Virus record (IMG/VR): IMGVR_UViG_3300046511_000114
Location: 1 to 25,166 of that record
Strand: one strand, 5' to 3'
Source of the DNA: a virus
DNA length: 25,166 nt
This document shows, one piece after another, positions 1,834 to 5,164 of the stretch; within the stretch, counting starts at the first letter, position 1; every line of letters begins with the position of its first letter. The notes beneath the pieces were generated by a model that saw only the letters and a program-made list of their open reading frames with translations, was not told where the DNA came from and did not search any database. Both the position numbers and the translations under genes were made by a program.

Positions 1834-2277
1834 ATGTGGTGCGGACTCAACGGGCGTTTCAAAAGGGCTGTGCTACGCAAGCTGGATCGGATAATCTTTC
1901 TCCTTGAAAGACTCACGATCAAGCCTGTGGCATCATTCGTTATCCTTGGAGGACCTGTGGATATTAAGCCTGGACAGTCTACTGTATTAACAGCGCAGCC
2001 GCTTGATGGGCAAACACCTCCGCAACCAACTACGTTGCCGTCGGGTGACGTTCCTACATGGAGCGTAAGTGATCCGACTAAAGTAAGCGCAAGCCCTTCT
2101 GCCGACGGGCTGTCGCTCGCGGTCACTGTGACGCCGGGGGCGGCGCCCGGAGACATCGTGTTCACGATCACCGATGCGGTCATTGCTACCGCAACTGGAT
2201 CGTTCACGCTAACGATCCCTGCGCCCGCGCCGAATCCGGTAGCGAGCTTCGCTGTCACAGCGAGCACCCCGGTTTAG
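1834..2277 (+). CDS. Ig-like (BIG2-type) domain protein (147 aa)
   Basis: After a basic, hydrophobic N-terminus (residues 1-30, including LRKLDRIIFLLERLTI) the protein looks like one bacterial Ig-like beta-sandwich: VDIKPGQSTVLTAQPLD, then WSVSDPTKVSASPSADG, then PGDIVFTITDAVIATATGSF. These resemble the strand pattern of BIG2-family repeats. A Pro/Ala linker and a second IPAPAPNPVASF start near the C-terminus suggest a truncated second repeat. In phages such domains usually decorate capsids or tails and bind cell-surface sugars; here that is inference. It starts four bases after the previous stop, with only a weak GAAG ribosome site. The N-terminal part could be a membrane anchor instead. Confidence 0.6.
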   Translation: MWCGLNGRFKRAVLRKLDRIIFLLERLTIKPVASFVILGGPVDIKPGQSTVLTAQPLDGQTPPQPTTLPSGDVPTWSVSDPTKVSASPSADGLSLAVTVTPGAAPGDIVFTITDAVIATATGSFTLTIPAPAPNPVASFAVTASTPV

Positions 2278-2282
2278 TAAAC

Positions 2283-2455
2283 GAGTTCGGGAACTCAGTG
2301 CGGCGCGAGTCATGTGGGCAGCCGGTTTCCTTGGACGGGCTTCCGGTCCACTAGGCATACTTGCACACTGAGTTCCCCATTACCTTGTCTGCGTACGGCA
2401 GACGGGAGCGCCCATGTGCAAGGCGCCTAAAAAGCCCGTCCCGAGCGAGCGAAGC
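2283..2455 (+). ncRNA. Highly structured non-coding stretch before the small terminase
   Basis: Several exact inverted repeats sit in this gap. Stem A is 2289-2300 with 2366-2377 (12 pairs). Stem B is 2333-2342 with 2432-2441 (10 pairs). Inside B are 2352-2356 with 2425-2429 (5), 2360-2367 with 2415-2422 (8) and 2387-2392 with 2398-2403 (6). B and its inner stems nest into one long hairpin of about 109 bases; A crosses them, so the two are alternatives or form a pseudoknot. 2283-2288 and 2291-2296 can also pair. GAGC-type repeats follow at 2443-2462. It may be an RNA, a leader switch, or the packaging (cos/pac) site bound by terminase. Type uncertain. Confidence 0.55.
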
Positions 2456-2471
2456 GAGCGAGCAGAACACT

Positions 2472-2939
2472 ATGACTCCAAAGGTTAAAATCCTCATTGA
2501 ACAGATCGCACGCTTACGCGTGGGTGGTATCCGTGACGGCGTCATCGCAGCAAAGCTTAATATCTCTCAGTCTGGTTTCTCTCGTATCATTGCTCTTCCC
2601 GAGTACAAAGACGTCGAAGCATGTGTGCTTAACGGAACCGTCTCGAAGATGGACGAGGCTCTCGCTGGCCGCGCAGATGCTCTCAAGGAGTACGCGAAAC
2701 AAGGTGTACCCGTAGCACTGCGTGCTCTATTAGAGGCTGCCACGCAACAACGGGACTTGCGTGCGCGCATCTCTGCGGCCAGCGAGATTCTTGACCGTGA
2801 CCCAGACAGGCTCTTCGCAAAGGGACAAGTTCGTGCGTCTGAGGATGCTCCCGCAGTAAGCGAAGCTGCGCTTAAGGCACTCGACGAAGTTGCTGATAAA
2901 ACGGCGATAGCAGCGACTCCGACACAAAGGGTGAACTGA
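2472..2939 (+). CDS. terS: Putative terminase small subunit (155 aa)
   Basis: The small subunit binds the packaging site and hands phage DNA to the large terminase. Residues 8-40 look like a helix-turn-helix (LRVGGIRDGVIAAKLNISQSG, then FSRIIALPEYK), typical of small terminases. Residues 45-115 are helical, including LKEYAKQGVPVALRALLEAA, a likely oligomer core, and the tail is acidic/Ala-rich. I chose the ATG at 2472, giving a DNA-binding domain at the N-terminus; the longer in-frame start at 2361 would translate the structured region. The ribosome site here is poor. The assignment also rests on its place two small genes before the large terminase and on the adjoining repeats. Confidence 0.7.
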   Translation: MTPKVKILIEQIARLRVGGIRDGVIAAKLNISQSGFSRIIALPEYKDVEACVLNGTVSKMDEALAGRADALKEYAKQGVPVALRALLEAATQQRDLRARISAASEILDRDPDRLFAKGQVRASEDAPAVSEAALKALDEVADKTAIAATPTQRVN

Positions 2940-2940
2940 C

Positions 2941-3213
2941 ATGTCTAGTATGTTTAAGAAGATGATCCAAGCGGGTGCTAAAGCGGCGGAAATCGCCGCA
3001 CCTATCGTTGGTGGTGCACTCGGTGGCCCCGCCGGTGCTAAGGTTGGACAAATGGCTGCTGGTGGTATTAAGAAGATTGCAAGCAGCCCTAAACTCGGTG
3101 GTGCTGGCTCGCAGGGGCAGGGAACTTTTATCCCGTCCTCGGCATCTTCGATTGGCGACGCGAGAGCGCAAGACAAATCTCGTATGAAAGATCAGTACGG
3201 GATTGAATACTAA
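2941..3213 (+). CDS. Small Gly/Ala-rich hypothetical protein (90 aa)
   Basis: A basic N-terminus (MSSMFKKMIQAGAKAAE) leads into a Gly/Ala-rich segment (residues 18-45: APIVGGALGGPAGAKVGQ, then MAAGGIKK) with small-residue spacing like glycine-zipper or membrane-inserting sequences. The C-terminal half is polar and probably flexible. It starts one base after the small terminase stop, with AGGGTGA upstream. Small proteins of this kind occur near podovirus terminase genes and may be minor virion or ejected proteins. I do not recognise a specific family. Confidence 0.6.
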   Translation: MSSMFKKMIQAGAKAAEIAAPIVGGALGGPAGAKVGQMAAGGIKKIASSPKLGGAGSQGQGTFIPSSASSIGDARAQDKSRMKDQYGIEY

Positions 3214-3215
3214 CC

Positions 3216-3485
3216 TTGGCAACCAACCACACCTCGTGGCAAGGTCGTGCTGCGCAGTCTAACTCGAAAGAGCAAGCTCGCGTAGCGAAGAAGTACAAGG
3301 GTGTCAAAAAGATTAGCGAAGGCGCTTTCAGCGACAGCGACATGGAAGCTGACCCATTCATGGAGAACGATCCGGTACTCGATACTATGGACCCTGGTCG
3401 TCGCCATGATCCGAAGCAATATGCGAAAGCCGCGTCGCTACCGTTGAAGAGAGCAAAGCAGGTTCTTAAAGAATCTGAACAGTGA
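3216..3485 (+). CDS. Small hypothetical protein, TTG start (89 aa)
   Basis: The protein is polar and charged (SKEQARVAKKYKGVKKISEG, then an acidic stretch SDSDMEADPFMENDPVLD, then a basic C-terminus). No domain is recognised. The proposed start is TTG at 3216, two bases after the previous stop, with no strong ribosome site; translation may be coupled. A later in-frame ATG at 3342 would cut it to less than half. Its stop overlaps the GTG start of the large terminase (GTGA at 3482-3485), which supports the frame as a real gene. It may assist packaging, judging only from position. Confidence 0.6.
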   Translation: MATNHTSWQGRAAQSNSKEQARVAKKYKGVKKISEGAFSDSDMEADPFMENDPVLDTMDPGRRHDPKQYAKAASLPLKRAKQVLKESEQ

Positions 3486-5164
3486 GCTACGCTTTTACCC
3501 CACTCCCGTTAACAGGCCAGCCAGCTGACGAGAAACTTCGTCGGCTGCGCTTTAACAGTCTCGGCTCACTTTTTTACTTCACTCGTGTTTGCCTCGGTCG
3601 ACGTCGTCTTACAGAATCGTTCCACCTTCCTTTTTGTTTAAGTCTCGAACGCGAGTTTCTCAAAGACGTCTACGAAATTCCTCGTGATCATTTCAAGTCT
3701 ACAATCTGTAGTGAAGCTCTTCCGATGTGGCTCACGCTCCCATTCATGCAAAGCGACGAGGATGCGTTTCTAACGCAAGGCTATGGGGATGAGTACATTC
3801 GTTTTCTAAAGCGAATGCACAATCCCATGAGGAGGAACCTCCTTGTCTCTGAAAACGTTACCAATGCGGCGAAGCTTGGAAAGCGGATTGAGTACCACTT
3901 CCAGAGTAATGCAATCTTTCGAGGATGCTTTAGCGAAATCCTTCCCACAAGCTCAGAAACTTGGACTTCATATTCAATGCACGTTAACCGGGGAAAGTTC
4001 GGAGGGGCTAGTCACGGTGAAGGCTCTTTTGACTTTCTCGGAGTTGGCGGTGCTTTGCAGTCTCGGCACTACGACAATCTATTCGAAGACGACTTGATCG
4101 GACGCAAGGCGATACAGTCGCCGTCGGTGATGGATCAGTCTATCGAGTATCACAAGTTACTCATTGGCGCCTTCGACTCACAGGATGCGGAGCATGAGAA
4201 TAACGAGTTGGTTGTCGCGAACCGCTGGGGCTTTCATGATCTTAATTCCCACATTCGTGAGAACGAACCTTGGTTCGTTATCCACTCTCACTCCGCTTTG
4301 GGTGGTTGTTGCGACGCGCATCCTTCAGATACGCCGATCTTTCCAGAAGAATTCTCGTTCGAAAAGCTAATGCGTTTTAAGCAACGCCTTGGCTCGTATC
4401 ACTTCTCGTGCCAATTCTTGAATAATCCTATCTCTCCTGAAGACGCAGACTTTAAGAGTGAGTGGCTTAAGTACTACTCGTTCGAACGAGGCGACGACGG
4501 TGGCGTACGTATCCAACAGGAATCTCACGATGGTCTCCACTATAAGCCTTTCCCATACCACCACCTACAAGTCGCAATGGCAGTCGATCCTGCGCACAGC
4601 GGGAATAGTGGTGCTGGTCGTGCTCGGCACGCTATTGTGGTATGGGGGCAACTGGATGATGACTATTTTCTACTGGATGCGTGGGCGCAGCAGTGTACTC
4701 TGGGAACGTTTGTTGACAAGATATACGCACTCGCGCAAAAATGGCGGCTTCGTAAGTTTGGTGTGGAAACAGTCGCCGGGCAAATCTACCTCAAGTTTCA
4801 CCTGGATACGAAGAATGCTCAGGAGAATAACTATCTGAAGATCATTCCGTTGAAGGGTGAGGTTGAGGGACCTGATGGTACTATGACTCGTAAGAAGGAG
4901 TGGAGAATTAGAAATGTACTATCACCGCTCTTTGAGTTCGGTCACGTCTACGTCCAACGTAGGCACCAAGATTTTATTGGGGAATATAACACGTTTCCCA
5001 GGGGAAAATTCGTGGACTTGTTGGATGCTAGTGCCTATATACCGCAAATGTTACGACATGCCGGTTCCAGAACGCAAAGCACGATAATGCTCGCAAATAA
5101 CCAACAGCGAGCGCGGCTCGTGAATACTCCGTACTCTGACTCAAGTATCTTGAGGGTGAACTAA
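3482..5164 (+). CDS. terL: Terminase large subunit (560 aa)
   Basis: This is the motor that cuts concatemeric phage DNA and pumps it through the portal using ATP. The ATPase half shows a variant Walker A (PRDHFKST, residues 67-74) and a Walker B-like NLFEDD (199-204). QFLNNP (311-316) resembles the conserved motif between the two halves. The nuclease half has candidate metal-binding acids D369 (AVDPAHS), E429 (FGVETV) and D512/D515 (VDLLDASAY). The length fits the family. The GTG start at 3482 overlaps the previous stop, and the TAA overlaps the next ATG (TAATG). The Walker A lacks the usual GxGKT form; PRxHxKST variants are known in phage terminases. Confidence 0.93.
   Translation: MSYAFTPLPLTGQPADEKLRRLRFNSLGSLFYFTRVCLGRRRLTESFHLPFCLSLEREFLKDVYEIPRDHFKSTICSEALPMWLTLPFMQSDEDAFLTQGYGDEYIRFLKRMHNPMRRNLLVSENVTNAAKLGKRIEYHFQSNAIFRGCFSEILPTSSETWTSYSMHVNRGKFGGASHGEGSFDFLGVGGALQSRHYDNLFEDDLIGRKAIQSPSVMDQSIEYHKLLIGAFDSQDAEHENNELVVANRWGFHDLNSHIRENEPWFVIHSHSALGGCCDAHPSDTPIFPEEFSFEKLMRFKQRLGSYHFSCQFLNNPISPEDADFKSEWLKYYSFERGDDGGVRIQQESHDGLHYKPFPYHHLQVAMAVDPAHSGNSGAGRARHAIVVWGQLDDDYFLLDAWAQQCTLGTFVDKIYALAQKWRLRKFGVETVAGQIYLKFHLDTKNAQENNYLKIIPLKGEVEGPDGTMTRKKEWRIRNVLSPLFEFGHVYVQRRHQDFIGEYNTFPRGKFVDLLDASAYIPQMLRHAGSRTQSTIMLANNQQRARLVNTPYSDSSILRVN

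Follow-up and report, generated by a model that had tools for sequence, protein, structure and literature searches.

Introduction

The pRNA of phage phi29 forms an RNA ring on the portal and is required for packaging; it operates in phages with a single ATPase and without a small terminase gene (terS). Crossing helices occur in other described systems. HDV-like ribozymes, which cleave themselves just 5' of their first helix, are double pseudoknots with a 5' helix that crosses another helix closing at the 3' end. The group I intron core has the crossing order of P3, P7 and P8, and mRNA operator pseudoknots such as the T4 gene 32 leader are H-type pseudoknots beside a gene in a polycistronic phage mRNA.

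Here we describe an element found in a stretch of 25,166 nucleotides, positions 1 to 25,166 of the IMG/VR virus record IMGVR_UViG_3300046511_000114 (hereafter, the window). We consider it nearly certain that positions 2289-2441 encode a structured RNA of a new family, about 150 nt in length and folded as a five-helix double pseudoknot. Many related uncultivated phages carry one copy of it beside their DNA-packaging genes. The RNA family and its topology are new; its function could prove to be of a known kind. In ordinary tailed phages, a large pseudoknotted RNA family at the terminase genes would add a new kind of part to the packaging module or to its immediate surroundings, and it may lie behind some of the non-coding terS-terL gaps of environmental phage genomes. 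The element also provides a searchable model, made of 23 nested pairs and two crossing helices.

Results and Discussion

Comparison with described structured RNAs

The coordinates of the element, of its helices A to E and of the flanking genes are collected in Table 1.

Table 1. Positions of the element, its paired arms and the neighbouring genes in the window.
Feature	Positions	Strand	Evidence or remark
Whole element, five-helix double pseudoknot	2289-2441	+	Models R1-R3; covariation
Helix A, 5' arm	2289-2300	+	12 exact pairs with 2366-2377; in relatives; used by no model
Helix A, 3' arm	2366-2377	+	Abuts the 5' arm of C
Helix D, 5' arm (two parts, 2314-2318 and 2322-2325)	2314-2325	+	From sequence; permutation test
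Helix D, 3' arm (two parts, 2343-2346 and 2347-2351)	2343-2351	+	Immediately before E
Helix D, pairings	2314-2318/2347-2351 plus 2322-2325/2343-2346	+	
Helix B, 5' arm	2333-2342	+	Inside the loop of D; 10 exact pairs with 2432-2441; 10/10 covary
Helix B, 3' arm	2432-2441	+	Exact pairing with 2333-2342; covariation
Helix E, 5' arm	2352-2356	+	5 pairs with 2425-2429; 5/5 covary; permutation test
Helix E, 3' arm	2425-2429	+	Permutation test; covariation
Helix C, 5' arm	2360-2367	+	8 exact pairs with 2415-2422; 8/8 covary
Helix C, 3' arm	2415-2422	+	Exact pairing with 2360-2367; covariation
Local hairpin in the A-C loop	2384-2406	+	2387-2392/2398-2403, 6 exact pairs, 9 with G-U; region variable among relatives
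Ig-like small gene preceding the element	1834-2277	+	Relative in L022/L044
Putative terS	2472-2939	+	Named in the initial annotation; precedes terL; relatives found
terL	3482-5164	+	phrog_38, E 5.9e-54

The initial annotation of this locus, made from the letters alone, had compared it with the phi29 pRNA. Both are structured phage RNAs of similar size, tied to packaging genes, in which the structure is kept while the sequence varies. Membership of the pRNA family is not supported: no Rfam model matched, and the strand order, with helix A crossing B, E and C, is unlike that of pRNA, for which, to our knowledge, no internal crossing helices of this kind exist. Membership of the HDV-like ribozymes is not supported either, as no Rfam match was obtained and the order P1-P2-P3-P4 with an inner P3 hairpin was not found. 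In the element, there is no P3 hairpin between the arms matching P2 5' and P1 3', E and C crossing instead, and helix A counts 9-17 pairs, whereas HDV P1 has about 7.

The crossing order of the group I intron core is reproduced by A, C and the hairpin between them, and endonuclease-like genes are present in the same region in some relatives. However, the element is intergenic, measures about 150 nt and has long B/E/C helices versus a short P7, and no split gene was seen. A group I intron was rejected because the element sits between complete ORFs and gave no Rfam match. Compared with the T4 gene 32 leader, it is much larger and contains two sets of crossing helices, and neither the downstream gene nor the distance to it is fixed.

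For the window element, Rfam 15 gave no match at E values up to 10; none was obtained at the gathering score for 12 and 14 related loci, and three other members gave chance-level matches only, far below the gathering score. Searches of open-licence PMC papers yielded no account of an element of this kind; an earlier description elsewhere is possible.

Gene context of the element

The putative terS, two small genes and terL of the window are all transcribed rightwards, and a gap of 194 nt separates the Ig-like gene from terS. The putative terS gave no PHROG or Pfam profile match, and no relative of it was found among the bacterial genomes searched. In contigs L022 and L044, the relatives of the Ig-like gene and of terS are adjacent, 9 nt apart, without the element. 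In L164, the translation of an Ig-like small gene (2586-3074), placed beside a GIY-YIG ORF, resembles by eye that of the Ig-like gene of the window. A search for tRNA genes found none.

Crossing arms and fold of the element

Arms A, B, E and C and the local hairpin, reported in the initial annotation together with the crossing of A and a degree of pairing beyond chance, were each found at their places, and A does cross B, E and C. Crossing exact pairs summing to 22 bp, as in the window, never arose when the 194-nt gap was put through 20,000 dinucleotide shuffles, nor when the whole 25-kb window was shuffled 150 times. Among the gap shuffles, a crossing sum of at least 18 was reached in 14 of 20,000, and a single helix of at least 12 bp in 0.06%. 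When wobble pairs were allowed, none of 300 shuffles equalled the arms of the window. Chance pairing as the origin of the arms is ruled out by the gap and window shuffles, together with the pairing statistics of the relatives given below.

The strand order of the fold is A5, D5, B5, D3, E5, C5, A3, a loop, C3, E3 and B3. In addition to A, which crosses B, E and C, an additional helix that the initial annotation did not contain, helix D, crosses B. A and C abut as in a classical H-type pseudoknot, and the abutting arms suggest that D may stack on E and C on A. Across the members, an A-rich stretch ahead of D5 and pyrimidines ahead of B5 were noticed by eye. An extra hairpin often follows B3 in the relatives; none is evident in the window.

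If A and B/E/C are treated as nested folds that exclude each other, their energies in the window are nearly equal (-78.4 versus -76.3 kcal/mol), and this difference of about 2 kcal/mol is consistent with a bistable leader switch, in which the two would be alternative folds turning terS translation on or off. A leader switch for the terminase had been put forward in the initial annotation. However, A and C share just 2 nt in the window (2366-2367), so that A and B/E/C are able to coexist. In most members, the overlap of A with the B/E/C arms is 0-3 nt and the arms abut, hence they need not compete, and such almost disjoint helix bases suit simultaneous formation. Furthermore, most relatives have the element after terS or before terL and not in front of terS. 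A switch of terS translation is extremely unlikely, and this part of the initial annotation is not supported.

Relatives found by covariance models and by geometry

The covariance model R1 was built on this one sequence with the nested helices B, E and C and the local hairpin, without stem A. It matched L006 (E 3e-8) and L007 (E 8.5e-7), both in the terS-terL interval and not upstream of terS; at the same relative place, both contain a helix A of different sequence. On 29 whole records, R1 gave no match, a one-sequence model being too weak. Model R2 (three sequences) brought in L081, L106, L131, L091 and L126, then L152, L069, L027 and L119, and model R3 (twelve sequences) further added L149, L201, L141/L153 and L025. 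The iterated models reach about 17 contigs. When R3 was run on 33 whole records, 11 gave a single match each and the other 22 gave no match, which corresponds to a copy number of one in each positive record.

A geometric scan of 1.12 Mb, in which A abuts C and B encloses, gave scores from 25 to 33, while no shuffled control exceeded 24. Restricted to the region upstream of terL, the same scan gave scores of at least 33 in 13 of 78 contigs, for a control maximum of 28. Searches by DNA similarity in phage and plasmid collections yielded nothing useful for the element, and no viral or bacterial contig matched the exact patterns taken from the window. With an unbiased 16-base pattern of the L006 subtype, the only matches were the three known contigs and L210; the latter was rejected as a member, since it is a coding, unstructured chance match to this pattern.

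Covariation and independent checks

Compensatory base changes in relatives, which the initial annotation had named as support for an RNA, were found. In alignment A8 (12 sequences), all 23 pairs of B/E/C show changes on both sides. In this alignment, which was built by the model and is thus biased towards the modelled helices, 96.2% of the B/E/C cells pair, versus 63.2% in shuffles, and pairing falls to 32-42% upon a one-column slide.

Because A8 leans to the modelled helices, independent checks matter. In stem A, which was not modelled, each of the nine members outside the training set has 9-14 Watson-Crick pairs, whereas swapped arms mostly give 4-7. The stem counts 10 pairs in each of the later matches L025 and L141 and, with these two included, is present in all 11 further model-found sequences checked. 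For helices D and E, none of 5000 permutations was as good over the members; the D and E segments came from the A/B/C descriptor, in which these two helices were not required but counted in the score used to choose candidates. As several helix lists derive from a descriptor that demands pairing of A, B and C, the independent support is limited to the model-found A helices and to D and E.

Covariation in all proposed helices, a general criterion for a structured RNA, was observed for B/E/C, for A, and for D and E. In these phages, the element is conserved, covaries, forms a pseudoknot and is specific to the packaging region. Since its sequence varies freely while the interlocked folds stay, the element must do something.

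Few B/E/C cells hold G-U pairs (2 cells), and wobble pairs favour neither strand (a few hand-entered helices, off register, counted little). These two observations, as well as the location adjoining terS and terL, are consistent with a packaging or replication site at the DNA level (cos, pac or similar), whose arms would act in single-stranded DNA or as protein-binding sites. However, a fold accounts for five different interleaved helices of constant geometry with abutting arms, whereas duplex binding sites do not, and we regard a DNA site as quite improbable.

Position of the element and proposed role

Every copy detected is located in the terminase region and has the same sense as the packaging genes. 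Most stand before terL (e.g. L027, L017, L142, L119, L149, L201 and L081) or directly after terS (L007, L023, L025, L009 and L091). In L006 and L106, the element follows a 127-aa gene, and the window is unusual in having it ahead of terS. The distance from the preceding stop codon to the start of the 5' arm of A is -4 to +18 nt, with the exception of L081, where an ORF overlaps the arm. The next start is found at widely varying distance, and the identity of the next gene differs. About 30 relatives showed no comparable conserved structure in the 194 nt immediately preceding terS. According to the initial annotation, relatives that keep terS and lose the arms without compensation would speak against a functional element; the arms are indeed lost directly upstream of terS, but several relatives carry them nearby, with compensation.

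No reading frame through the element is consistently open across the members. A programmed readthrough or frameshift signal was rejected because no frame is consistently open past the preceding stop codon, and an intrinsic terminator because the plus strand of the element contains no such site, i.e. no G+C-rich hairpin with a T run behind it.

The orientation and the intergenic placement suggest that the molecule is a sense-strand RNA. We give about an even chance to an action in cis, with the element serving as a domain between cistrons of the packaging mRNA. Such a domain, very stable, about 150 nt long and located in the sense (late mRNA) strand, would begin just past the stop codon of the preceding gene and would most likely act by blocking an exonuclease, by directing mRNA processing or by binding a protein of the phage or the host. 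In this way, it would set the relative expression of the flanking genes (terS, terL and the small genes). Since most copies sit before terL or just after terS, the element is not specifically a terS leader. Three observations argue against this reading of a cis-acting RNA: no fixed cis target is evident, as the next gene and its distance vary; the wobble evidence, with few G-U pairs, favours neither strand, nor RNA over single-stranded DNA; and the element is dispensable or replaceable, as described below.

A position independent of any one downstream gene, the single copy and the linkage to the terminase in every member also point to a trans-acting packaging RNA, which would be freed from the mRNA and work with the terminase or the portal, similar to phi29 pRNA in role and not in fold. 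However, phages nearly identical in terL either do without the element or have a very different version of it, which is hard to accept for an essential motor part, and no sign of a separate transcript was seen; a trans-acting RNA therefore appears improbable. The structured RNA with a packaging role suggested in the initial annotation is supported in its structure, through the double-sided changes in every modelled pair, and in its location in the terminase region; a role in packaging itself is hypothetical. There is a rather small chance that the element represents a structured RNA in packaging, or in its terminase control, in ordinary terS/terL phages, with a fold unrelated to phi29 pRNA and behaving as an interchangeable module.

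Turnover and exchange between phages

Seventeen of the 74 terL contigs were labelled element-positive, which is a floor, since L204, L009 and probably L118 were treated as negative and yet have recognisable elements. On the TerL tree (74 sequences), the positives are scattered and 11 changes are needed, versus a mean of 15.5 after shuffling, 3 of 500 shuffles being as low. L091, the sister of the window phage on this tree, is positive.

Gapped identities were calculated, and terL was compared over its first 900 nt. L006 and L009 are 99.7% identical in terL and 55% identical in their elements. Conversely, the element of L009 is 80% identical to that of L025, with terL at 68%, and the element of L006 is 87% identical to that of L106, with terL at 72%. 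L126 and L155 are about 94% identical, and in L155 the element is replaced by a small zinc-finger/HNH-like ORF (3150-3446, weak profile matches only). A GIY-YIG ORF in L164 (3037-3417, 2.4e-12) and an endonuclease-like ORF in L013 (5822-6274) occupy the region where close relatives have the element. Because near-identical terL goes with very different elements or with endonuclease-like genes, the element is exchanged as a module. Its replacement in L155, and the lack of a recognised copy in most terL contigs, whether through true absence or through divergence beyond detection, indicate that it is dispensable or replaceable. The divergence between L006 and L009 poses the question of why the RNA is exchanged or diversified so fast.

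The ORFs of L155, L164 and L013 and the identities of the L006, L009 and L025 elements would also be expected of a mobile or selfish RNA, possibly a ribozyme, without phage function, in a slot also used by homing endonuclease genes; the vicinity of phage terminases is known as a hot spot for nuclease genes (PMC10448857). However, in the records searched, the element was never present in more than one copy, outside the terminase region or in antisense, and it contains no ORF. Moreover, a useful module is also exchangeable by ordinary mosaic recombination. A mobile RNA is accordingly rather unlikely.

Other features of the window and of related leaders

A strong promoter-like site (TTGACA, 17 nt, GATAAT with TG) is located at 1546-1574 of the window, before the first gene of the packaging operon, and similar leaders are found before terS in relatives. 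In the terS leader of L003 (1345-1431), a central arm (about 1400-1409) can pair with either the upstream or the downstream ACTGGCGT copy, in an attenuator-like arrangement. The octamer GCTTCGCT/AGCGAAGC occurs 16 times in the window, versus 1.4 expected, at sites including 139, 1386, 1507, 1552, 2246 and 2448; several are in gaps, and one is just 3' of the element. Similar repeats, TTCGCT and ACTTCGT, are visible in gaps of L003, L004, L038 and L046.
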